DNA from: Oscillospiraceae bacterium
GTDB taxonomy: Bacteria; Bacillota; Clostridia; Oscillospirales; Acutalibacteraceae
NCBI GenBank assembly: GCA_015066095.1
Contig: SVPC01000012.1
Location: forward strand, 1 to 47,361
DNA length: 47,361 bases
Direction of reading: 5' to 3'
Below the pieces are notes generated by a model, which worked only from the letters and a program-made list of their open reading frames with translations, ran no database searches and was not told the DNA's origin. The position numbers were made by a program, and so were the translations under genes. Positions 23,374-44,896 of the stretch are shown here, in pieces (position 1 is the first letter of the stretch; each line of letters begins with the position of its first letter).

Positions 23374-24171
23374 CTATTTTATAAAAGATGCCACTTTTTT
23401 AATGCTTTGATATGCCTTTTCTAAAAATTCGTGTGGGGTTAAATTTTTATAAAGTTCGTTACCGGTATATTTGTTTTCGGTAAATACTTCAAGCATTAAA
23501 GAGCCTTTATAACCGCTTTTTTTAATGTGTGGCATTGATTTTTCGTAATCAATTTTGCCATCAAAAGGCAATAAATGAAGGTCACCGCCGCGTTTACAGT
23601 TGTTATCGTGTATATGGGTGCAAAGCAGTCTGTCACCGTAAAGTGACATATATTCTATACCCTGTGTAAAGCAGTTTTCGTGACCTATATCCCAACAAAA
23701 ACCAACGTTTTTATTTTGTTTAAATGTATCCATAGCCCATGATAGAAATTCGGGCACACGCAAATTTTCAAAGGCGATATTTACGTTTTTATTAAGGCCG
23801 TGTTCTACAAGTTTGCGAAAACGGTTTTTCCCCAGTTCACTCATAGGAGGTGGGTTGAAACCCGCAGAAATATGTACTACTGCGGTGGGGACATTTGCAT
23901 CACTGCAACAATCTATACAATAAAGCAAACTGCCAAAAAGTTCTTCACCTTCTATTCCGTCGCGCCATAAACTGTTAGTACCTGCAAATGGTGCGTGAAC
24001 AAAGGAATATTCTAAATTATAAAGGGCGCAAAGTTCTGCAATATGGCATAAATCGGTAGTATAGGTCATATCGGTAAAAGTTGCGTCAAAGCCCAATTCT
24101 TTGATGGTTTTTAAATATTCTTTTGGGGATAGACCATCTATTGACTCTAAATTTATGCCTAATTTATGCAT
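23374..24171 (-). CDS. Sugar phosphate isomerase/epimerase-like TIM-barrel protein
   Basis: A 265-residue protein of the xylose isomerase-like/AP endonuclease 2 fold. Metal-ligand-type motifs are visible: FENLRVPEFL with Glu, CWDIGHEN (Asp/His), HIHDN (His) and LEVF (Glu). Members isomerise or epimerise sugars, or act on inositol derivatives; the substrate cannot be told. The start at 24171 (MHKLGIN) is chosen for AAAGGGG upstream rather than the longer frame that begins at 24246 and runs into the divergent promoter. It is a lone gene diverging from the T-box operon. Confidence 0.82.
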   Translation of the reverse strand: MHKLGINLESIDGLSPKEYLKTIKELGFDATFTDMTYTTDLCHIAELCALYNLEYSFVHAPFAGTNSLWRDGIEGEELFGSLLYCIDCCSDANVPTAVVHISAGFNPPPMSELGKNRFRKLVEHGLNKNVNIAFENLRVPEFLSWAMDTFKQNKNVGFCWDIGHENCFTQGIEYMSLYGDRLLCTHIHDNNCKRGGDLHLLPFDGKIDYEKSMPHIKKSGYKGSLMLEVFTENKYTGNELYKNLTPHEFLEKAYQSIKKVASFIK

Positions 24172-24239
24172 TTTAATACCCCTTTGTGCTTTATATAAGG
24201 TAATTATATCGCTCAATGGCGAAAAAATCAACAAAATAG

Positions 24240-24268
24240 TTGACAAAAAGACAAAATAGTGATATAAT
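24240..24268 (+). promoter_or_regulatory. Perfect consensus sigma-A promoter of the first T-box unit
   Basis: TTGACA (24240-24245), 17-base spacer, TATAAT (24263-24268). Such a strong promoter is typical where control is exercised afterwards by a riboswitch. Confidence 0.9.
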
Positions 24269-24289
24269 TACCAAAAATCAAATTTTAAA

Positions 24290-24540
24290 TGCTTTGACGA
24301 AGACGGTTTGGATATTTTGTTTTCAGAGAGTCGGCGGTTGCTGTGAGCCGATAGCGGGAATCCTCATAACCCATCCCTTCCGAGCAGAAAAGCTGAAACA
24401 ACAGTAGGTTTTTCCGTGATTGCTGCGTAAAGGCATAGGAATTGTTAGATTCCAAGAGTGGCAGTTTTACTGCAATTTGAGTGGTACCGCGAGTGTTTAT
24501 TATCACCCGTCTCAAAGCGATTTGAGATGGGTGTTTTTTA
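24290..24540 (+). promoter_or_regulatory. T-box riboswitch 1, predicted specifier AUC (Ile)
   Basis: A tRNA-sensing leader. Visible parts: Stem I base GAAG (24299-24302) with CTTC (24377-24380), the AGAGAG and GGCGGTTGCTGTGAGCCG Stem I elements, a small stem GCAGT/ACTGC, and the T-box GAGTGGTACCGCG (24479-24491). TTTGAG (24476-24481) can pair with CTCAAA (24511-24516) as antiterminator; otherwise CTCAAA joins the terminator (24504-24533, then a T run). The UGGU bulge complements an ACCA tRNA end (A73). Reading the specifier loop as CATCC gives AUC, isoleucine; this triplet is my inference. Confidence 0.92.
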
Positions 24541-24571
24541 TTGAATTTGAAAATGAAAGGGAGTAATTATT

Positions 24572-26839
24572 TTGACTACCAACACCGCAAAAGAACAGTT
24601 ATTGGAAATTGCTTCACGTATTAAGGAGTTGCGCGAAATTATGGGTTGGACTACTGCCGAAATGGCACAAAAAACCCAAGTAAGCGAAGAACAGTATATT
24701 ATATTCGAAAGTGCAAATGCAGATATTCCCTTTTCCTTTATTCATAAGTGTGCTTTGGCTTTTGATGTAGAACTTACCGAACTTTTGGAAGGTAGAACTG
24801 CAAAACTTTCTACCTATACTGTAACACGCAAGGGTAAGGGTCAGAAAACCGCTAAAGAAGACGGTATCGACATTACAAACTTAGCGCCTAAATTCCGCGA
24901 TAAAATAGCTGAGCCGTATTTTGTAAGATACGAATATTCTGCCGCTCAGCAAAATAAACCTATTCATCTTTCAACCCACTCAGGACAGGAGTTTGACTTT
25001 ATTTTAAGCGGCTCTTTGAAGGTACAAATCGGTGACCATACTGAAATTTTACACGAAGGTGACAGTATTTATTACAACTCGTCAATACCCCACGGTATGA
25101 TAGCGGTCGATGGCGGAGAATGTGTGTTCTGTGCGGTGGTTTTACCGGGTGAAGAAGTTAAGGAAGAAAGCGTTAGACGTAGCATTGCTTCGGCTAAAAC
25201 AAGCGAAAAACTTGTTTGCGAAAAGTTTGTTGAAACCGAAGAAGATGAAAGCGGCGCATTACAGAATATCAGTTTCAAAAATACCGATGTTTTTAACTTC
25301 GGTTTTGATGTAGTAGACGGTATTGCTGATAAATATCCCGAAAAACTTGCTATGCTTCACGTGGATAAAAACAAGGTAGAACGTCGCTTTACTTTTAAGG
25401 ATATCAAACGCGCGTCTAACCAATGCGCTAACTATTTTACATCGCTTGGTATCAAGCGTGGCGACAAAGTAATGCTGGTGCTTAAACGCCATTATCAGTT
25501 CTGGTTTAGTATGATAGCGCTTCATAAAATCGGTGCGGTGGCAATTCCTGCTACAAACCAACTTAAAGACCACGATTTTGAGTATAGATATAAGGCAGCG
25601 GGCGTTAGCGCTATAATCTGTACTGCCGACGGTGATACTGCCGAAATTGCAGAGCGCGCAGCCAAAAATTGCGAAGGTGTTAAAAATCTTATAATGGTTG
25701 GCGGCAAACGCGACGGTTGGCACGATTTTGATAGCGAATATAAATTGTTTAGCGGTAAGTATGACCGACCCCAAAATGCTTCCGCAGGTGACGAAACTGC
25801 GCTTATGTTCTTCACCTCGGGTACAACAGGTAACCCCAAAATGGCAGCTCACAAGCATACTTATGCTTTGGGTCATTTTGTAACCGCTAAATATTGGCAT
25901 TGTTGTGAGCGTGATGGTTTGCATCTTACCATTTCTGATACAGGTTGGGGCAAATCGCTTTGGGGTAAACTTTACGGCCAGTGGCTTTGCGAGGGTGCAG
26001 TTTTTGTTTACGATTTTGATAAATTCGATGCCGACGATATTTTGCCAATGTTTGCAAAATACAACATCACCACTTTCTGCGCACCGCCTACAATGCTTCG
26101 TATGCTCGTAAAGGGCGATTTATCCAAGTATGATTTATCTTCTATTCACCATATGACTACCGCAGGCGAGGCCTTAAATCCTGAAGTTTATCGCCAATTT
26201 GAAGAAGCTACAGGTCTTCAAATAATGGAGGGCTTTGGTCAGACTGAAACCACACTTACTATCGCAAATCTTTGTGGCACAACACCGAAAATCGGTGCTA
26301 TGGGTAAGGCTTCTCCACAGTATGATGTTGATATCGTTGACCTTGACGGCAACCCTGTGGCAGATGGTGAGGTTGGCGAAATTGTTATAAGAACAAGCGA
26401 AAATGTACCTTGCGGACTTTATAAAGAATATTATCTCGATGATGAGAAAACCAAAGAGGCTTGGTACGACGGTATGTACCACACAGGCGATACTGCTTGG
26501 CGTGATGAAGACGGCTATTTCTGGTATGTCAGTCGTATCGACGATGTTATTAAGTCTTCGGGTTACCGCATCGGACCGTTTGAAATTGAGAGCGTTATTA
26601 TGGAACTTCCCTATGTATTGGAATGTGGTGTTTCTGCCGCTCCCGATGAGGTTCGCGGTCAGGTTGTAAAGGCAAGTATTGTGCTGACAAAAGGCACCGA
26701 GGGCACTGAAGAACTTAAAAAAGAAATTCAGAATTATGTTAAAACTCACACTGCGCCCTATAAGTATCCGCGTGTAATTGTTTTCCACGATGAATTACCA
26801 AAAACTATAAGTGGAAAAATTCAACGTAATAAATTATAA
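24572..26839 (+). CDS. HTH-cupin-acyl-CoA synthetase fusion, paralogue 1
   Basis: A 755-residue three-domain protein. Residues 6-68 are an XRE-type helix-turn-helix, though its recognition helix (VSEEQYIIFES) is acidic, so DNA binding is doubtful. Residues 110-200 are a cupin (THSGQEFDFILSG, GDSIYYNSSIPHGM). Residues 225-755 are an AMP-forming acyl-CoA synthetase: TSGTTGNPKMA loop, GFGQTETT, YHTGDTAWRDEDGYFW, and catalytic Lys in SGKIQRNKL. Context suggests activation of a branched short-chain acid such as 2-methylbutyrate. The TTG start at 24572 is set by AAAGGGAG eight bases upstream. Its T-box implies induction by amino acid shortage. Closest relative is the next gene. Confidence 0.88.
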   Translation: MTTNTAKEQLLEIASRIKELREIMGWTTAEMAQKTQVSEEQYIIFESANADIPFSFIHKCALAFDVELTELLEGRTAKLSTYTVTRKGKGQKTAKEDGIDITNLAPKFRDKIAEPYFVRYEYSAAQQNKPIHLSTHSGQEFDFILSGSLKVQIGDHTEILHEGDSIYYNSSIPHGMIAVDGGECVFCAVVLPGEEVKEESVRRSIASAKTSEKLVCEKFVETEEDESGALQNISFKNTDVFNFGFDVVDGIADKYPEKLAMLHVDKNKVERRFTFKDIKRASNQCANYFTSLGIKRGDKVMLVLKRHYQFWFSMIALHKIGAVAIPATNQLKDHDFEYRYKAAGVSAIICTADGDTAEIAERAAKNCEGVKNLIMVGGKRDGWHDFDSEYKLFSGKYDRPQNASAGDETALMFFTSGTTGNPKMAAHKHTYALGHFVTAKYWHCCERDGLHLTISDTGWGKSLWGKLYGQWLCEGAVFVYDFDKFDADDILPMFAKYNITTFCAPPTMLRMLVKGDLSKYDLSSIHHMTTAGEALNPEVYRQFEEATGLQIMEGFGQTETTLTIANLCGTTPKIGAMGKASPQYDVDIVDLDGNPVADGEVGEIVIRTSENVPCGLYKEYYLDDEKTKEAWYDGMYHTGDTAWRDEDGYFWYVSRIDDVIKSSGYRIGPFEIESVIMELPYVLECGVSAAPDEVRGQVVKASIVLTKGTEGTEELKKEIQNYVKTHTAPYKYPRVIVFHDELPKTISGKIQRNKL

Positions 26840-26856
26840 TATATATAATAAATATA

Positions 26857-26885
26857 TTGACAATTTACCATTGTTGTGATATACT
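26857..26885 (+). promoter_or_regulatory. Promoter of the second T-box unit
   Basis: TTGACA (26857-26862), 17-base spacer and TATACT (26880-26885) preceded by TGA. The 17 bases after the paralogue 1 stop lead straight into it. Confidence 0.85.
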
Positions 26886-26894
26886 AAACGGGTT

Positions 26895-27158
26895 AAAAGC
26901 GTTGACGAAGAGTGCACAATTTTTCGTATATCAGAGAAATGACGGTCGGTGCGAGTCATTTATACGGGTTTTGTGTTGTAACTTCTGAGCTGAGGGGAAG
27001 AACGCGAAAGTCAGTAGAACCCCTTCGTGATTGCTGCGTAAAGGCATAGGAATTGTTAGATTCCAAGAGTGGCGGTCAGCACCGCAATTTGAGTGGTACC
27101 GCGGGTATAGATTAAGTTCAATGCTCGTCTCAAAGTCATAACTTTGGGACGGGTTTTG
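26895..27158 (+). promoter_or_regulatory. T-box riboswitch 2, predicted specifier GUA (Val)
   Basis: A second tRNA-sensing leader. Stem I: GAAG and CTTC at the base, GCACAA/TTGTGT, CGTATA/TATACG and ATGAC/GTCAT above. T-box GAGTGGTACCGCGG at 27091-27104; antiterminator TTTGAG (27088-27093) with CTCAAA (27129-27134); terminator CGTCTCAAAG/CTTTGGGACG then TTTT. GCGGT/ACCGC before the T-box covaries with GCAGT/ACTGC in leader 1. A 48-base block (27026-27073) is identical to 24415-24462. Placing the specifier at the same offset as in leader 1 gives GUA, valine; TGT or TTG are other readings. UGGU again selects an A73 tRNA. Confidence 0.92.
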
Positions 27159-27210
27159 TTATTTCGTCCCACTAAACTCTATTTAAAAAAGAGGATGACG
27201 GAGGAAGAAA

Positions 27211-29505
27211 ATGGAACAGATGAAAGAACTTGATTTTAAAATCAAGGAAATAGCAGGTCGTATACGCGAATTGCGTGAAATTGAAAATTTAACAGTGGCC
27301 CAAATGGCTCAAAAAACCGGTGTAAGCGAACAAGAATATCTTGCTTGTGAAATGGGTGAAAGTGATTTACACTTTGCCTTTATTTACCGTTGTGCGAATG
27401 CATTCAATGTCGATGTTACCGATATTATCGAAGGTTACAGTCCTAAACTTAAGTCATTTACTGTAACACGTCGCGGTGAAGGTCAGCGTATTGAAAAGGC
27501 GCATGGTATGACCTATTACAATTTGGCATCCGCCTTTAAAAATAGAATTGCCGAGCCGCTTTATGTTAAAAGCGTTTACAGCGAAGAACTACAAAACAAA
27601 CCTATCGAGTGTACAACCCATTCAGGTCAGGAATGTGACCTTATAATTTCGGGTCACTTGAAGGTTCAAATTGGTAACCATACTGAAGTTTTGGGCCCTG
27701 GCGACAGTATTTATTTTGACTCTAATACACCTCATGGTATGATTGCTGTCGGCGGTGAAGATTGTACTTTCTATGCGATTGTTCTTAACCCAACGGGTGA
27801 GCCTATTCCCGAGCTTGAGCCTGATAAAAAGGTTGACAGCAAGGTATCTGCCCGTGTTCGCAAAGACCGAAAAGAGCGCATTTATAGTAATTACATAGAT
27901 ATCAAAGAAAACGAGAATGGTACACCAACTTCGATTACCTTCAAAAACACCGAAAAGTTTAACTTTGCATACGATTTGGTGGATGTATTGGCTGAAAAAG
28001 AGCCCCAAAAACTTGCTATGCTTCATATTTCCAAGGATGGTACAGAGCGCCGATTAACCTTTAAGGATATCAAAAAGGCTTCTAACCAATGTGCTAACTA
28101 CTTTAAGTCTTTGGGAATTAAAAAAGGCGATAGGGTAATGCTTGTGCTCAAACGTCATTATCAGTTCTGGTATTGTATGATGGCTCTTAATAAGTTGGGT
28201 GCTGTTGTTATCCCTGCTACAAATCAGTTGCAGGAGCACGATTTTGAGTATAGATTTAAGTCTGCAGGTGTTACCGCTATTGTTTGCACTGCGGACGGTG
28301 AAACCGCCGAGCAGGTAGATATAGCAGCCCAAAAGTGCGATTGTCTTAAACATAAATTGATTGTAAACGGCAAACGCGACGGTTGGCGTGATTTTGATGA
28401 GGAATATCCGCTTTATTCTACCCACTTTAAGCGTACTGAAGATTCACCTTGCGGTGATGACCTTATGCTTATGTACTTTACATCGGGTACAAGCGGTTAT
28501 CCCAAAATTGCAACACATACATACAAATACCCCTTAGGTCATTTCCATACTGCCAAGTATTGGCATGATGTTGACCCCGAAGGTTTACACTTTACTATAT
28601 CCGATACCGGTTGGGCAAAGGCTATGTGGGGTAAGCTTTACGGTCAATGGTTGTGTGAAGCCGCTATCTTTGTTTATGATTTTGACCGTTTTGACGCGGC
28701 TGAAATATTGCCAATGTTTGCAAAGCATCAGATTACTACTTTTTGTGCACCGCCCACAATGCTTCGTATGCTTATTAAACAGGATATTTCTAAATACGAT
28801 TTATCTTCGGTTAAGCATATGACCACAGCAGGTGAGGCTTTAAACCCCGAGGTTTACCGTCAGTTTGAAAAGATTACAGGTCTTCAGATTTTGGAAGGCT
28901 TCGGTCAGACCGAAAGTACGATGATTATCGGTAATATGACAGGGGAACCGCACAAAATCGGCTCTATGGGCAAACCCGCTCCAATTTATGATGTTCACAT
29001 TGTAGACCCCGATGGCAACGATGTTGACGCGGGTGAAACAGGCGAAATTGTTATTGATATAAGTCGCGGTCTTCCTTGCGGTCTTGCTATTGGTTACTAC
29101 GGTGACGAAGAGAAGACAAAAGAAAACTGGCACGACGGCTTCTATCATACAGGTGATACCGCTTGGTGCGATGAAGATGGCTTCTACTGGTATGTTGGCA
29201 GAATAGATGATGTTATCAAGTCTTCCGGCTACCGTATAGGACCATTTGAAATCGAAAGCGTTATTATGGAACTTCCATATGTACTCGAATGTGGTGTTTC
29301 TGCCGCTCCCGACGAGGTACGCGGTCAGGTAGTAAAAGCAAGTATTGTACTTGTAAATGGCACCGAGCCGAGCGAAGAACTTAAAAAAGAAATTCAAACC
29401 TATGTTAAGGATAGAACCGCACCTTACAAGTATCCGCGAATTGTAGAATTCCGCGAAAGCTTACCTAAAACTACAAGCGGTAAAATCCAGAGAAATAAAT
29501 TATGA
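27211..29505 (+). CDS. HTH-cupin-acyl-CoA synthetase fusion, paralogue 2
   Basis: A 764-residue paralogue of the preceding fusion with the same order: helix-turn-helix (about 12-72), cupin (about 115-205, TTHSGQECDLIISG), AMP-forming acyl-CoA synthetase (about 230-764; TSGTSGYPKIA, GFGQTEST, YHTGDTAW, SGKIQRNKL). Both proteins are almost identical over the stretch from IDDVIKSSGYRIGPFEIE to the C-terminal third, while the linkers and cupin differ, as expected after tandem duplication and change of specificity. Predicted to make isobutyryl-CoA or a similar branched acyl-CoA. GGAGG precedes the ATG. Its stop overlaps the next start by four bases (ATGA), so it is tightly coupled to the downstream genes. 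Confidence 0.88.
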   Translation: MEQMKELDFKIKEIAGRIRELREIENLTVAQMAQKTGVSEQEYLACEMGESDLHFAFIYRCANAFNVDVTDIIEGYSPKLKSFTVTRRGEGQRIEKAHGMTYYNLASAFKNRIAEPLYVKSVYSEELQNKPIECTTHSGQECDLIISGHLKVQIGNHTEVLGPGDSIYFDSNTPHGMIAVGGEDCTFYAIVLNPTGEPIPELEPDKKVDSKVSARVRKDRKERIYSNYIDIKENENGTPTSITFKNTEKFNFAYDLVDVLAEKEPQKLAMLHISKDGTERRLTFKDIKKASNQCANYFKSLGIKKGDRVMLVLKRHYQFWYCMMALNKLGAVVIPATNQLQEHDFEYRFKSAGVTAIVCTADGETAEQVDIAAQKCDCLKHKLIVNGKRDGWRDFDEEYPLYSTHFKRTEDSPCGDDLMLMYFTSGTSGYPKIATHTYKYPLGHFHTAKYWHDVDPEGLHFTISDTGWAKAMWGKLYGQWLCEAAIFVYDFDRFDAAEILPMFAKHQITTFCAPPTMLRMLIKQDISKYDLSSVKHMTTAGEALNPEVYRQFEKITGLQILEGFGQTESTMIIGNMTGEPHKIGSMGKPAPIYDVHIVDPDGNDVDAGETGEIVIDISRGLPCGLAIGYYGDEEKTKENWHDGFYHTGDTAWCDEDGFYWYVGRIDDVIKSSGYRIGPFEIESVIMELPYVLECGVSAAPDEVRGQVVKASIVLVNGTEPSEELKKEIQTYVKDRTAPYKYPRIVEFRESLPKTTSGKIQRNKL

Positions 29506-30164
29506 TTTATAAAAGAGTAACCCTTTTGTGCGGTCATTATGGCAGCGGTAAAACCAATGTTGCCGTTAATATGGCATATGACCTTAAAAGTCAGTACGCG
29601 GATGTGGTTATAGCCGATTTAGATATCGTAAACCCTTATTTTCGTACAAAAGACAGTAAGGATGACCTTGAACAAAGAGGTATAACCCTTATTTCGTCAG
29701 AGTATGCAGGTACTAATGTCGATATCCCTGCAATGCCGCAACAAATGTATATGATAACCGATAATAAGAATTTACACGCGGTAATAGATGTGGGCGGTGA
29801 TGACCGCGGTGCTTTGGCACTTGGCAGAATTGCCCCTGCTATAATGGAAGAAAATGATTACGAAATGCTTTTTGTAATTAACTGCTTCCGTCCGCTAACG
29901 AGAGATGCCGAGTCTACACTCGAAGTGATGCGTGAGATAGAGGACGCGTGTAAAATTAAATTCACTGCTATAGTGAATAATTCTAATTTAGGTAATGAAA
30001 CAAAAATGGAGGATGTTTTGAATTCTCTGCCTTACGCCGATGAGGTTTCCCGTCTTACCGGACTTCCTGTAAAGTGTACCTGCATATACAGTGCGCTTTA
30101 TGAAGAGGCAAAGGAGAAAATTGAAAACTTATTCCCCCTGAATTTACAAAGAAAAATCAATTAA
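29502..30164 (+). CDS. P-loop ATPase of the MinD/CobQ type, operon-associated
   Basis: A 220-residue SIMIBI-class NTPase. Walker A is HYGSGKTN, followed by VIADLDIVNPYF and DVGGDDRG, which resemble the switch and Walker B parts of ArsA/MinD/CobB-like proteins. I recognise no named family. Translationally coupled to the synthetase before it and 13 bases from the ferredoxin after it, so it probably serves this pathway, for example in metal or cluster loading of the oxidoreductase or control of the synthetase. That role is a guess. Confidence 0.75.
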   Translation: MIYKRVTLLCGHYGSGKTNVAVNMAYDLKSQYADVVIADLDIVNPYFRTKDSKDDLEQRGITLISSEYAGTNVDIPAMPQQMYMITDNKNLHAVIDVGGDDRGALALGRIAPAIMEENDYEMLFVINCFRPLTRDAESTLEVMREIEDACKIKFTAIVNNSNLGNETKMEDVLNSLPYADEVSRLTGLPVKCTCIYSALYEEAKEKIENLFPLNLQRKIN

Positions 30165-30177
30165 AGGAGTGTTTTAT

Positions 30178-30384
30178 ATGGCTAAATTAACCTTTAAAAC
30201 AGATAAATGTAAGGGCTGTGGCCTTTGTGTAGATGTTTGCCCTAAAAAAGTTTTGATTTTAAGTCCCGATAAAATCAACGCAAAGGGTCACCACCCCGTA
30301 GAAGCAGCAAACGAAGCCGACTGTATTGGATGTGCATTTTGCGCTACTATGTGTCCGGACTGTATTATTACTGTAGAAAGGTAA
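30178..30384 (+). CDS. 2[4Fe-4S] ferredoxin subunit of the 2-oxoacid oxidoreductase
   Basis: A 68-residue iron-sulfur protein with two four-cysteine motifs, CKGCGLCVDVCP and CIGCAFCATMCP, each able to ligate a [4Fe-4S] cluster. In four-subunit 2-oxoacid:ferredoxin oxidoreductases this is the delta subunit that carries electrons between the TPP centre and free ferredoxin. The ATG at 30178 follows AAAGGAGTG; an in-frame TTG at 30169 is ignored. A structured 143-base gap separates it from vorB. Confidence 0.92.
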   Translation: MAKLTFKTDKCKGCGLCVDVCPKKVLILSPDKINAKGHHPVEAANEADCIGCAFCATMCPDCIITVER

Positions 30385-30488
30385 AGGTTTAGTAAAATTG
30401 CCCGCAGCACCGCTTTTGTTCGGGGCAGTACTCGAGGTACGGTACCACTCACTGCAAACGGCACTGTGAACAATTTTCTTTAAACCTT
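30384..30488 (+). promoter_or_regulatory. Structured intergenic RNA element, class unknown
   Basis: AAGGTTTA (30384-30391) pairs with TAAACCTT (30481-30488), and AAAATTG (30394-30400) with CAATTTT (30471-30477). Inside this long closing helix lie TGCCC/GGGCA (30399-30403 with 30423-30427) and CAGT/ACTG around GGTAC/GTACC (about 30426-30454). There is no T run, so it is not a simple terminator. It might set the ratio of ferredoxin to the large subunits by mRNA processing or stability. Confidence 0.4.
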
Positions 30489-30527
30489 ATTTGTGTTTTT
30501 CAACATAGAAAGGAATGATTTTTTAAA

Positions 30528-31589
30528 ATGGCAGATAAAGTTTTAATGAAAGGTAACGAAGCTATTGCCGAAGCCGCTATTCAAGCAGGCTGCCGTCATT
30601 ACTTTGGTTATCCTATTACTCCCCAAACTGAAATTGCCGCTTATATGGCAAAAAGAATGCCCAAAATCGGCGGATGCTTTTTACAGGCCGAAAGCGAAGT
30701 TGCCGCTATAAATATGGTTTATGGTGTGGCTTCTACAGGCTATCGCGTAATGACTTCTTCTTCAAGCCCCGGTATATCCTTAAAGAGTGAAGGTCTTTCT
30801 TACCTTGCAGGTGCAGATTTACCGGCACTTGTTATAAACGTACAACGCGGCGGTCCGGGTCTTGGCGGTATTCAACCCTCACAGTCTGACTATTATCAGG
30901 CCACAAAAGCAGGTGGTCACGGTGACTTTAGAATGCTCGTTTTAGCGCCTGCATCTGTACAGGAAATGGCAGACCTTACTGTTAAAGGCTTTGACCTTGC
31001 TGATAAATACCGTATGACTTCTATGATTTTGGCAGACGGTACTATGGGTCAGATGATGGAACCCGTATCTTTGGATTACGAGGCTTCAAAGCCTGTAGAA
31101 AAGCCTTGGGCTACCACAGGTACCAAGATGGAAAGAGAGCATAACATTGTAAACTCACTTTTCTTGCAACCTGATGAACTTGAAAAATCTAATAACGAAC
31201 GTTTTGAGCGTTATAAGTACATAGAAGAAAACGAAGCAATGTATGAAGAATATATGATGGATGATGCTGAGATTTGCATCACCGCTTTTGGTATTGCTTC
31301 TCGTGTTGCTAAAAATGCTATTGTGGAAGCCCGTAAAAAGGGTATAAAGGTTGGTATGATTAGACCTATCACCTTGTGGCCTTTCCCCAACAAGCCTTTT
31401 GAAAAGACTATCGGCAAGATTAAGACCTATATCTCGGTTGAGCTTTCAATGGGTCAGATGATTGACGATGTTAAACTCGCAACAAAGTGCAACGGCGAAT
31501 ATGTACTTTGCAATCGTGTTGGCGGTATGATTCCGTCACCCGAAGAGGTACTTGCCGCAATAGAAAAAGCAAACGGAGGTAACAAATAA
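30528..31589 (+). CDS. vorB: Branched-chain 2-oxoacid:ferredoxin oxidoreductase, alpha subunit VorB
   Basis: The 353-residue alpha subunit, with pyrimidine-binding domain and C-terminal transketolase-like domain, of a CoA- and ferredoxin-dependent 2-oxoacid oxidoreductase. Typical stretches are GCRHYFGYPITPQTEIAAYM, ESEVAAINMVYG, SSSPGISLKSEG and RGGPGLGGIQPSQSD. Most similar in pattern to VorB (2-oxoisovalerate type), though 2-oxoglutarate enzymes are close relatives. The reaction is reversible; reductive carboxylation of an acyl-CoA gives the 2-oxoacid. Its TAATG stop/start overlap couples it to vorA. Confidence 0.9.
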   Translation: MADKVLMKGNEAIAEAAIQAGCRHYFGYPITPQTEIAAYMAKRMPKIGGCFLQAESEVAAINMVYGVASTGYRVMTSSSSPGISLKSEGLSYLAGADLPALVINVQRGGPGLGGIQPSQSDYYQATKAGGHGDFRMLVLAPASVQEMADLTVKGFDLADKYRMTSMILADGTMGQMMEPVSLDYEASKPVEKPWATTGTKMEREHNIVNSLFLQPDELEKSNNERFERYKYIEENEAMYEEYMMDDAEICITAFGIASRVAKNAIVEARKKGIKVGMIRPITLWPFPNKPFEKTIGKIKTYISVELSMGQMIDDVKLATKCNGEYVLCNRVGGMIPSPEEVLAAIEKANGGNK

Positions 31590-32338
31590 TGGTAGTTTTT
31601 GAAAAACCACACGCATTATCAGATGCACCGCTTCATTACTGCCCCGGTTGTACTCACGGTATAGTTCACCGTCTTGTTGCCGAGGTTATGGACGAATTGG
31701 GTATAGAAGGCAAAACCGTTGGTATAGCACCTGTTGGTTGCTCGGTTATGGCTTATAATTATTTTAATTGTGATATGATAGAAGCAGCTCACGGCAGAGC
31801 ACCCGCTGTTGCTACAGGCGTTAAACGCGCGCTCCCCGAAAATGTAGTATTTACATATCAGGGTGACGGTGACTTGGCTTCTATCGGTATGGCTGAAACT
31901 GTACACGCAGCTGCAAGAAATGAAAATATCACAATTATCTTTATCAACAACGCAATTTATGGTATGACAGGCGGTCAGATGGCTCCTACATCTTTACCCG
32001 GTCAGGTAACTCAAACCTCTCCTTATGGACGCGACACTGACCATTGCGGTTTCCCGATTAAGGTTTGCGAAATGCTTTCCGAGATTGAGGGTGCGGAGTA
32101 TTTAGAACGCGTTGCCGTTAACAATGTAAAGAATGTTAAGAACGCTAAAAAGGCTATCAAAAAGGCTTTCCAAAACCAGATTGACGGCAAAGGCTTCTCT
32201 TTGGTAGAAGTTATTTCAAGTTGTCCTACAAACTGGGGTCTTACACCTCAAAAAGCACTTGAATGGATAGACGAAAAAATGATTCCTTATTATCCTTTGG
32301 GTGTTTATAAGGACCGTAGCGCAAAGGAGGCAGAATAA
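31589..32338 (+). CDS. vorA: 2-Oxoacid:ferredoxin oxidoreductase, beta (TPP-binding) subunit
   Basis: The 249-residue thiamine-diphosphate-binding subunit. It begins with the family's HYCPGCTHGIVHRL and holds the TPP motif GDGDLASIG running to NNAIYGMTGGQ. It carries out the carbon-carbon chemistry together with the alpha subunit. One-base overlaps with both neighbours show strict translational coupling. Confidence 0.92.
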   Translation: MVVFEKPHALSDAPLHYCPGCTHGIVHRLVAEVMDELGIEGKTVGIAPVGCSVMAYNYFNCDMIEAAHGRAPAVATGVKRALPENVVFTYQGDGDLASIGMAETVHAAARNENITIIFINNAIYGMTGGQMAPTSLPGQVTQTSPYGRDTDHCGFPIKVCEMLSEIEGAEYLERVAVNNVKNVKNAKKAIKKAFQNQIDGKGFSLVEVISSCPTNWGLTPQKALEWIDEKMIPYYPLGVYKDRSAKEAE

Positions 32339-32871
32339 TGGCTACTACACAGTATTTATTTGCAGGCTTCGGCGGTCAGGGTATACTCTTCTCGGGTAAA
32401 TTTTTGGCTTATAAAGGTCTTACTGAAGATAAACAGGTTAGTTGGCTTCCGTCATACGGCCCCGAAATGCGCGGCGGTACAGCAAGTTGCAGTGTTATTT
32501 TAAGTGACAGCCCCGTAGGTTCTCCCATCGTTTCTAAACCCGATGTTTTGGTTGCTATGAATCTTCCGTCACTTGATAAATATGAAGATTCGGTTGTATC
32601 AGGCGGTACAATTTTTGTAGACTCGGCTCTTATCGAGCGTAAAGTAAAGCGCGATGATGTTACCGTTCATTATATCCCTGCAACCAAACTTGCAAGTGAT
32701 AACGGTATGCCTACTTTGGCTAATATGATTATTGTTGGCAAAATCCTTAAAGAACTTGGCGGTTATAATGAAGAAACTGTTAATGCCGCACTCTCAAAGG
32801 TTATTTCTGCTAAACGTGCTGATATGCTTGAAATCAACAAAAAAGCAATGAGTATCGGTGCTAATAATTAG
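32338..32871 (+). CDS. vorC: 2-Oxoacid:ferredoxin oxidoreductase, gamma subunit
   Basis: The 177-residue gamma subunit, opening with [17 protein letters not shown] and continuing with [17 protein letters not shown], both standard for this subunit, which contributes to CoA and inter-subunit binding. It completes the four-subunit enzyme with the ferredoxin, vorB and vorA. Confidence 0.92.
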
Positions 32872-32882
32872 GAGATGTTATT

Positions 32883-33947
32883 ATGGAAATTAAAATAACA
32901 AAAGCTGCCGTTTTAAAAGAAAAACCCGACAGCAGTACATTGGGCTTTGGTAAAATTTTTACCGACCATATGTTTATGATGGACTGGAATAAGGAAAAGG
33001 GTTGGTATAATGCCCGTATAGTTCCTTTTGAAAATATTTCGCTTCATCCTGCTTCCACTGTTTTGCACTATGGTAGCGAAATTTTTGAAGGACTTAAAGC
33101 ATACCGCCGTAAAGACGGCAAGGTGCAAATGTTCCGCCCAATTGAAAATATCCGCCGTATGAACCGCTCGGCAGAGCGTCTTTGTCTTCCCCAAATCCCC
33201 GAAGATTTGGCAATGGAAATTCTTGAAACATTCGTATCATTAGAGCAAGACTGGACTCCATCGGCAGAGGGTACATCACTTTATCTTCGTCCGTTTATGT
33301 TTGGTAACGACGAGTCTTTGGGTGTTCACACAGTGCATAATGCTACTTATGTAATTATCGCTTCACCCGTTGGCAGTTATTATGCAGAAGGCATCAATCC
33401 TGTTAAGATTATGATTGAAGATGAGGATGTCCGCGCAGTACGTGGCGGTACAGGTTACGCTAAATGCGGCGGTAACTATGCGGCTTCCAACCGTGCGGGT
33501 GAACGTGCCGCTAGGCTCGGCTATTCACAGGTTTTGTGGCTTGACGGTGTAGAACGTAAATATATTGAAGAAGTAGGCGCTATGAACGTTATGTTCAAAA
33601 TCGACGGAAAAATCGTAACGCCTATGCTCTCAGGTTCAATTCTTCCAGGTATTACACGTATGTCTTGTATCGCAGTTCTTAAGGAAAAAGGCTTTGAAGT
33701 TGAAGAAAGACTTTTAAGCATTGATGAGTTGGCTGATGCTTTAGAAAACGGCAAACTCGAAGAAGCTTGGGGATGCGGTACCGCGGCAGTAGTATCTCCT
33801 ATTGGCGAACTTTGCTATAAAGGTGTTAAATACCCTGTAAACAATGGCGAAATCGGTGAGGTTACTCAAATGCTTTACGATACCTTAACAGGTATTCAAT
33901 GGGGCAAAATTGAAGATACATTCGGTTGGATAAAGCCTATAAAATAA
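32883..33947 (+). CDS. ilvE: Branched-chain amino acid aminotransferase
   Basis: A 354-residue PLP fold-type IV transaminase that interconverts Val, Leu or Ile and their 2-oxoacids with glutamate/2-oxoglutarate. Class IV motifs include LHYGSEIFEGLKAYRRKDG near residue 60, KCGGNYAASNRAGERA with the Schiff-base Lys, EEVGAMNVMF, and GCGTAAVVSPIGEL near the C-terminus. It starts 11 bases after vorC behind GGAGATG and ends the operon at a terminator, which supports a final transamination step in making branched-chain amino acids. Confidence 0.95.
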   Translation: MEIKITKAAVLKEKPDSSTLGFGKIFTDHMFMMDWNKEKGWYNARIVPFENISLHPASTVLHYGSEIFEGLKAYRRKDGKVQMFRPIENIRRMNRSAERLCLPQIPEDLAMEILETFVSLEQDWTPSAEGTSLYLRPFMFGNDESLGVHTVHNATYVIIASPVGSYYAEGINPVKIMIEDEDVRAVRGGTGYAKCGGNYAASNRAGERAARLGYSQVLWLDGVERKYIEEVGAMNVMFKIDGKIVTPMLSGSILPGITRMSCIAVLKEKGFEVEERLLSIDELADALENGKLEEAWGCGTAAVVSPIGELCYKGVKYPVNNGEIGEVTQMLYDTLTGIQWGKIEDTFGWIKPIK

Positions 33948-33961
33948 TAAAAATATAAAAC

Positions 33962-33990
33962 AACCCCCGAAGTTTAAAACTTCGGGGGTT
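33962..33990 (+). terminator. Terminator of the branched-chain operon
   Basis: AACCCCCGAAGT (33962-33973) pairs with ACTTCGGGGGTT (33979-33990), followed by TT. It can also end the small convergent gene on the other strand. Confidence 0.9.
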
Positions 33991-33995
33991 TTAAA

Positions 33996-44660: not shown

Positions 44661-44890
44661 AAAAAATAGCCGATTGCTCGGCCACCAAACATCAAGAAAA
44701 CAACAGAAAATAAGCGTTCTTTATGTTGATAGCACTCCGCAAATGCGACAGTAAGCCGAATATTATTCCGTCTTACCAGAGTAGCGTCTGCCGACAACCC
44801 TCTTCGGCGGTTGCTCCTTTCGGTTTTGGCTTTTTACTGCCGTAATTAACATCCAAAACTTACTGATAACGCACCGCGCCTCTATCTTAC
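44661..44890 (-). promoter_or_regulatory. Lysine riboswitch with terminator, controlling dapA-lysA
   Basis: On the minus strand the L-box core is clear: AGAGGCGCGGTGCG and CAGTAAG near 44860-44884, the P3/P4 part with GCCGAAG, ACTCTGGTAAGACGG, CTTACTGTCGCA, and GGAGTGCTATC at 44728-44738 closing P1 with GATAG (44882-44886). The expression platform is TGGCCGA/TCGGCTA (44667-44684) followed by a T run (44661-44666): lysine binding should favour termination. Confidence 0.92.
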
Positions 44891-44896
44891 TAATAT

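Follow-up and report, generated by a model that had tools for sequence, protein, structure and literature searches.

The locus described here raises the question of whether a set of genes for fatty acid activation, ferredoxin-linked oxidoreduction and branched-chain transamination builds branched-chain amino acids or breaks them down. It lies at positions 24240-33990, on the plus strand, of a 47,361-nucleotide stretch (contig SVPC01000012.1 of assembly GCA_015066095.1; hereafter the window) from an Oscillospiraceae bacterium that probably came from an animal gut, and it consists of two promoter-T-box units in series (Table 1). The first unit contains promoter P1, T-box 1 and the acyl-coenzyme A (CoA) synthetase gene ACS1, while the second contains promoter P2, T-box 2, a second synthetase gene, ACS2, and genes for a P-loop ATPase, a 2[4Fe-4S] protein, VorB, VorA, VorC and the aminotransferase IlvE, followed by a hairpin. 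An earlier note on this DNA had read the two T-box-led synthetases and the genes after them from the letters alone, and this was confirmed by Rfam, Pfam, NCBIfam and the sequence itself; the note passed over the N-terminal helix-turn-helix (HTH) and cupin domains of both synthetases, the fact that T-box 2 has a promoter to itself, and a small palindromic insert. The transfer RNA (tRNA) control that it proposed also stood, but not as a single unit, since two T-box units are arranged in series with VorBAC behind the valine T-box. With a probability of roughly 0.85, the locus holds the isoleucine and valine arms of a regulon with three arms, whose products turn short branched fatty acids into branched-chain amino acids. 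The T-boxes, specifiers, gene families, lack of ilvC, ilvD and leuC matches and conservation were computed directly; the substrates and the CO2-fixing direction are what we infer.

ilvC is mostly missing where tandem synthetases occur

The standard genes, ilvBNCD, which the earlier note had suggested looking for, were sought with profile models in the window's genome, which is 95.5% complete. Models of ketol-acid reductoisomerase (KARI, ilvC) and dihydroxyacid dehydratase (ilvD) gave nothing in this genome and the acetohydroxyacid synthase (AHAS, ilvB) model gave weak fragments only, at 29 bits versus a cutoff of 538, leaving the genome without ilvC, ilvD and a recognisable ilvB; each of the three models was positive in 14 of 14 control genomes. 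No match to leuC was found in the window's genome either.

Co-occurrence was scored across the 295 genomes of the window's order, the ilvB and ilvD searches covering the window's genome alone. Genome lists for the two-by-two tables were transcribed by hand, with totals matching the tallies of 194 genomes for the synthetase (match at 1e-100), 142 for ilvC and 114 for the leucine-arm fusion described below. A best synthetase match was called fused-type if its E-value did not exceed about 1e-255 (108 genomes), a limit inferred from coverage under which the second match need not be fused. ilvC was found in 11 of the 85 genomes having a fused-type best match and at least two matches, compared to 131 of the 210 others (Fisher p = 1.6e-15), and stratification by family gave an odds ratio (OR) of 0.13 (p = 8e-9). 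When two or more matches of any kind were counted, the figures were 18/125 versus 124/170 (p = 1.2e-24), with a within-family OR of 0.10 (p = 1.4e-12). The within-family test covered 287 of the 295 genomes, spread over 20 families, after removal of six singletons and of two whose family was not visible, and its OR of 0.13, although not a full phylogenetic test, indicates that the avoidance between tandem synthetases and ilvC is not only a matter of family-level descent. In the window's own family (26 genomes), the six genomes with two matches are exactly the six without ilvC and leuC, and ilvC is lacking in none of the 20 others. Among the 74 tandem genomes without ilvC, the leucine arm was present in 67, leuC in 12 and neither in four.

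A search for the gene order in other genomes, also suggested in the earlier note, found it to recur in many relatives. The carrier records, taken as the best 80 of at least 593 matching stretches, are named as Clostridia, Oscillospiraceae, Ruminococcaceae, Ruminococcus and a few others, and where a source was stated it was mostly herbivore gut; Erysipelotrichaceae bacterium NK3D112 (L148) is the only one of the 80 not marked as metagenome-assembled or uncultured. Its stretch carries genes from the isoleucine, valine and leucine arms together, with no T-box found ahead of its ACS1. In a phylum-wide draw, a synthetase match at 1e-230 was present in 11 of 398 genomes, including that of the window.

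T-box specifiers name isoleucine and valine

Both leaders reach the gathering score of Rfam RF00230 (93 bits), T-box 2 only just, and a gathering-score scan of the full window returned T-box 1 and a lysine riboswitch only. The element GUGGUACC (UGGN bulge) is present in both T-boxes. Specifiers were read as the codon one base 5′ of the stem I strand that ends just before GAGC, giving AUC and GUA, which are codons for isoleucine and valine rather than for an unrelated amino acid and agree with the downstream function, itself a prediction. As controls, two further leaders in the window's genome were read by eye with this rule and gave fitting codons, UGG for the one before trpB and AAC for the one upstream of asnA.

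Relative loci (L numbers) were scored by script for T-box and specifier at 120 sites, comprising the best 80 matching stretches (named loci, in which a T-box was counted if within 400 bases of the gene) and 40 others; the two sets overlap in species, and their specifier counts were kept apart although both feed the tree below. In the named loci, ACS1 was preceded by a T-box in 67 of 80, all 67 with an isoleucine specifier (none found before 13), and ACS2 in 43 of 53, all 43 with valine (GTA 37, GTC 6; none found for ten). A LeuA-like gene of the leucine arm had one in 22 of 29, always with leucine (CTC 17, CTG 5; none found for seven), and the specifier changes synonymously among relatives between GTA and GTC and between CTC and CTG. 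Eight of the 132 specifiers, misread by or unreadable to the script, were read by eye (L097, L100, L109, L113, L117, L134, L136, L170), six of them within the 110 of the isoleucine and valine set. The 40 other loci gave a T-box for ACS1 in 31 of 34, all isoleucine, for ACS2 in 22 of 27, with 20 valine and two isoleucine, and for the LeuA-like gene in six of eight, all leucine, one by eye (L061). Some relatives with one synthetase have VorBAC and IlvE behind an isoleucine T-box (for example L049 and L052; also L066, with no IlvE in its stretch).

Single HTH-cupin synthetases behind an isoleucine T-box (valine in L071) were also seen at L068, L069, L071-L076 and L079, with no VorB in the fetched stretch, in host genomes of which some have ilvC and some do not.

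The synthetases resemble enzymes for branched short fatty acids

Pfam searches identified ACS1 and ACS2 as N-terminal HTH and cupin domains fused to an AMP ligase, whose P-loop-like and SGK motifs are kept in 14 aligned rows. The closest chain in the Protein Data Bank (PDB), and the nearest solved relative, is 3etc (614.6 bits; next 331.5), the MacsMa enzyme of Methanosarcina acetivorans, which prefers 2-methylbutyrate as substrate according to the available portion of PMC10455477. MacsMa differs in being without the HTH-cupin part, as its 580 residues align with the query from position 203 onward and are too few to include it. We know of no T-box for MacsMa.

The top NCBIfam match was MbcS (NF047394), at 440.3 and 439.2 bits, and because these scores are below the 850-bit cutoff, the synthetases were filed as MbcS relatives and not as MbcS. 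In Staphylococcus aureus, MbcS activates 2-methylbutyrate and isobutyrate with a Michaelis constant (Km) <10 uM and isovalerate with a Km >500 uM, supplying fatty acid synthesis (PMC10026030, accessible excerpt), a preference like the one predicted for ACS1 and ACS2, whereas its product serves membrane fatty acids and the two synthetases score far under its family cutoff. The weak activity of MbcS on isovalerate fits a separate synthetase for the leucine arm. That the synthetases would act on branched short fatty acids, as the earlier note had it, is supported by these relatives, which handle 2-methylbutyrate and isobutyrate.

In a tree of 191 synthetase sequences, all 59 of those with a valine T-box fell in one 69-tip clade (support 0.999) containing no isoleucine-T-box member, and T-box type required one Fitch change; since gene and T-box are inherited together, this clustering reflects few events. 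Positions separating the types (>85% on both sides, <5% crossing) numbered six, of which five are N-terminal (59, 96, 99, 111, 116) and one, the sole near-fixed difference among the 526 positions of the catalytic domain, is Gly460 of ACS1 versus Ala469 of ACS2 in the motif DTGW-x-K. This site is Gly in 100 of 101 isoleucine-T-box rows and Ala in 69 of 69 valine-clade rows, and it aligns with the Val of DPGWVTG in an acetyl-CoA synthetase. Assuming that this position faces the acyl pocket, a change from Gly to Ala would make the pocket smaller by one methyl group, and isobutyrate is one carbon shorter than 2-methylbutyrate. The clustering of the other differences in or beside the HTH-cupin part suggests that the N-terminal parts of ACS1 and ACS2 bind different ligands. 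At two relative loci (L179, L182), the HTH-cupin part and the synthetase are two adjacent genes with a stop at the junction, indicating that at least two relatives keep as neighbouring genes the two parts that are fused elsewhere; this count leaves aside L180, L181, L183 and L184, which also have internal stops but were translated out of frame.

Leucine has an arm of its own

The earlier note had spoken of branched-chain amino acids in general as possible products of the operon, and the specifiers bear this out for isoleucine and valine, while leucine has a T-box operon and a synthetase of its own. A third branched-chain T-box, with the leucine specifier CUC, is present on contig C27 of the window's genome (L083 1822-6586), heading genes for a LeuA-like protein, an 829-residue TIM-barrel/acyl-CoA synthetase fusion and an amidohydrolase. 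In 35 of the 80 named loci, part of this operon shares a stretch with the isoleucine and valine synthetases, upstream or downstream. At the low end of L061 and L062, on the minus strand, the LeuA-like gene and its leucine T-box (CTC by eye and CTT, respectively) lie divergently beside the isoleucine and valine operon.

The LeuA-like protein retains an intact leucine-binding LeuA_dimer domain (115.4 bits, cutoff 24.9). HxHND was missing in 36 of 36 such proteins, one of which has HxH elsewhere, and TLRDG was found in none of the 36, 28 of whose rows reach that motif. HxHND and TLRDGEQ are the metal and catalytic motifs of LeuA. The protein is best read as a former enzyme that has been retained to sense leucine. 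The intact LeuA_dimer domain would also suit a working isopropylmalate synthase, with an aconitase and an isocitrate dehydrogenase of contig C19 in place of LeuCD and LeuB, and the genome indeed showed a single protein of the aconitase family and a single isocitrate/isopropylmalate-type dehydrogenase, no further leuB-type search having been made. We consider this unlikely, given the missing motifs, a Pfam match that begins only at profile position 18 and the assignment of the C19 protein by NCBIfam, over cutoff, as aconitate hydratase. Supply of leucine through the isoleucine and valine operon alone or through LeuABCD likewise seems improbable in this genome, since no aconitase-family protein other than that aconitase was found and the leucine T-box heads another operon.

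The leucine-arm synthetase probably acts on isovalerate. Its best PDB relatives, which are fatty acyl, feruloyl and malonyl synthetases, were uninformative as to substrate.

Proposed mechanism and alternatives

In the biosynthetic reading, uncharged tRNA-Ile at T-box 1 would permit expression of ACS1, which would convert 2-methylbutyrate to its CoA ester, and uncharged tRNA-Val at T-box 2 would permit expression of ACS2, converting isobutyrate to isobutyryl-CoA, along with VorBAC, the ferredoxin-like subunit, the ATPase and IlvE. The ferredoxin-linked VorBAC would reductively carboxylate the two CoA esters to 3-methyl-2-oxopentanoate and 2-oxoisovalerate, which IlvE would aminate to isoleucine and valine, and the unlinked leucine operon, with its LeuA-derived protein and its synthetase, would feed the same VorBAC and IlvE. 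Since each T-box has a terminator, transcription from P1 should read through T-box 2 only when tRNA-Val is uncharged, which would place VorBAC and IlvE under valine control here; with the oxidoreductase behind the valine T-box, shortage of isoleucine alone should raise mainly ACS1. A fuller scheme, which we think possible with the odds somewhat against it, would have three tRNAs each govern one of three isoacid-activating enzymes, all feeding a single carboxylating oxidoreductase, with a catalysis-dead LeuA as the leucine-sensing subunit of the isovalerate synthetase and the HTH-cupin parts sensing their own substrate or product, giving each arm control at both the RNA and the protein level.

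Several observations weigh against the biosynthetic reading. The fetched stretch contained no VorB for 22 of the 80 named and 15 of the 40 other loci, partly because of contig ends, ilvC persists in 11 of the 85 tandem genomes, and neither a synthetase match nor ilvC was present in 28 of the 295 genomes. For the leucine arm the link is weaker than for ilvC, as leuC co-occurs with the fusion in 40 of 114 genomes versus 127 of the 181 others (leuC called at a best E-value <1e-100, 167 genomes, compared to 162 over the curated cutoff). The synthetases of L068 and L069, nearer ACS2 by BLAST, are single, stand away from the oxidoreductase and carry an isoleucine T-box. Rfam gathering was reached by just four T-boxes, at three of 20 relative loci, so that most relative T-boxes rest on motif and stem I. 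The HTH-cupin parts and the ATPase have no explained role.

The reverse direction, a Stickland-like operon in which IlvE and VorBAC oxidise valine and isoleucine, yielding acyl-CoA and reduced ferredoxin, while the synthetases reclaim the acids, draws on the reversibility of these enzymes and, as is generally known, on their use for amino acid fermentation in other anaerobes. It is highly improbable, as isoleucine and valine T-boxes should turn genes on when these amino acids run short, ilvC is mostly absent where tandem synthetases occur, and AMP-forming activation uses up ATP, which would be odd in a degradative route. Equally poor is the prospect that the synthetases prime branched membrane fatty acids, with VorBAC and IlvE linked for an opposite flow from amino acids, for which MbcS as best NCBIfam match (about 440 bits) and its high affinity for both acids speak, since primers need neither separate isoleucine and valine T-boxes nor a shared oxidoreductase and aminotransferase and the ilvC anticorrelation would be left unexplained.

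Relation to known systems

The conversions of 2-methylbutyrate to isoleucine, isobutyrate to valine and isovalerate to leucine by rumen microbes have been known biochemically since the 1960s-70s (Allison, Bryant, Peel and Robinson, in the references of PMC7356843, available in part), and the overall chemistry is the same as that predicted here. Those studies are older biochemistry, to which the genes, the tRNA control and the split into arms would be added. The control element is also familiar from the T-box-run ilv/leu operons of Bacillales and Clostridia (RF00230), which share the promoter, T-box and terminator, the branched-chain specifiers and the role in branched-chain amino acid supply; here, in contrast, fatty acid activation and reductive carboxylation are controlled instead of ilvBCD/leuABCD, and each arm has one T-box. 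The novelty would lie in the gene set, the tRNA control and the fusions, because the isoacid chemistry was known. The earlier note had thought the gene set not well described. As far as our searches of the open-access literature go, which leave subscription journals aside, where a description may exist, nothing describes a dedicated gene set of this kind run tRNA by tRNA, with regulatory domains fused on and leucine in an arm apart, and no genome-level account of which bacteria use isoacids with which genes was found there. The available parts of two T-box surveys and of a T-box database paper contain no description of the gene set and no mention of oxidoreductase or isovalerate.

Branched short fatty acids are required by or stimulatory for several rumen methanogens (PMC10658910, in the text available), are precursors of valine, isoleucine and leucine in rumen fermentation (PMC7356843) and, per partial sources, have been tried as feed supplements. 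If the biosynthetic reading is true, fatty acids left by neighbouring microbes serve as the valine and isoleucine source of a bacterium without the usual genes, and rumen isoacid use, a long-standing nutritional trait, gains a gene basis that is testable gene by gene. The signature of tandem synthetases and T-boxes would then predict isoacid users from sequence alone. The analysis also gives likely substrates to two synthetase clades and describes a LeuA homologue that is conserved without its catalytic motifs.

Layout of the locus and neighbouring features

P1 and P2 are the top two of 27 promoter-like sites, a count not above chance (shuffle mean 23.5), but each lies directly 5′ of a T-box, and both have TG ahead of the second hexamer. 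vorB is adjoined by the VorA, VorC and ferredoxin-subunit genes in the window and in relatives, the 2[4Fe-4S] gene adjoining vorB there as well. VorA and VorC score under all NCBIfam cutoffs shown and owe their names to Pfam and gene position; by family matches and order, VorBAC is a VOR-type oxidoreductase. IlvE exceeds an equivalog cutoff. The hairpin 3′ of IlvE was flagged on the minus strand only, the plus strand having the palindrome followed by TTAAATTAT.

Table 1 Features of the locus in the window
Feature	Position	Strand	Evidence
Promoter P1 (TTGACA-17-TATAAT)	24240-24268	+	12/12 consensus match, best in region
T-box leader 1, specifier AUC (Ile) at 24373-24375	24285-24517	+	Rfam RF00230, 103.7 bits, E 6.2e-22
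Terminator-like hairpin closing T-box 1	24504-24533	+	
ACS1: HTH + cupin + AMP-forming acyl-CoA synthetase, predicted 2-methylbutyryl-CoA synthetase (Ile arm)	24572-26839	+	Pfam; nearest PDB 3etc; Gly460
Promoter P2 (TTGACA-17-TATACT)	26857-26885	+	11/12 consensus match, second best in region
T-box leader 2, specifier GUA (Val) at 26978-26980	26893-27135	+	Rfam RF00230, 93.0 bits, E 8.1e-20
Terminator-like hairpin closing T-box 2	27123-27154	+	
ACS2: HTH + cupin + AMP-forming acyl-CoA synthetase, predicted isobutyryl-CoA synthetase (Val arm)	27211-29505	+	Pfam; Val clade; Ala469
Conserved P-loop ATPase	29502-30164	+	Weak CbiA match, 25.2 bits vs cutoff 25.4; conserved motifs; predicted fold
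2[4Fe-4S] ferredoxin-like subunit, 68 residues	30178-30384	+	Two CxxCxxCxxxCP motifs read from sequence
Small palindromic insert, considered separate from the system	30385-30515	+	Inverted repeat AAGGTTTA..TAAACCTT by eye
VorB (2-oxoisovalerate:ferredoxin oxidoreductase, VOR)	30528-31589	+	NF005507, 537 bits, cutoff 399
VorA (thiamine pyrophosphate (TPP) subunit)	31589-32338	+	TPP_enzyme_C, 81.3 bits, cutoff 21.9
VorC (gamma subunit)	32338-32871	+	POR, 114.2 bits, cutoff 27.4
IlvE branched-chain aminotransferase	32883-33947	+	NF009897, 477.9 bits (cutoff 307); TIGR01123, 396 bits (cutoff 250)
Terminator-like hairpin 3′ of IlvE, probably bidirectional	33962-33990	+	13-pair palindrome

The ATPase is conserved across 36 sequences (mean column identity 53%), including the motifs GHYGSGKTN, DxDIVNPYFR and GGDDRGA, and was predicted to fold as a SIMIBI-type P-loop protein (predicted local distance difference test, pLDDT, 89.8). 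Its best PDB fold matches were signal recognition particle (SRP) GTPases and HypB, at a template modelling (TM) score of about 0.5 that is too weak to assign a role, and a PDB sequence search gave two matches only (E 0.29 and 0.69). As a guess, it might serve in maturation or gating of the iron-sulphur oxidoreductase.

The insert between the ferredoxin gene and vorB (~130 bases) has long inverted repeats with a GGTACC core and one further copy in the genome, on contig C10 (72% over 93 bases). The GGTACC had prompted consideration of a minus-strand T-box at 30385-30515, which was rejected because no Rfam T-box was found there and the segment is an inverted-repeat insert. A match to the small RNA (sRNA) BTnc005 at 33884-33993 (32.9 bits versus a gathering score of 174.8) was taken as chance. 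On the minus strand, a xylose-isomerase-like TIM-barrel gene (PF01261) at 23374-24246 is divergent from the operon and belongs to the same domain family as part of the leucine-arm fusion, and the lysine riboswitch aptamer lies at 44722-44892 (80.7 bits).

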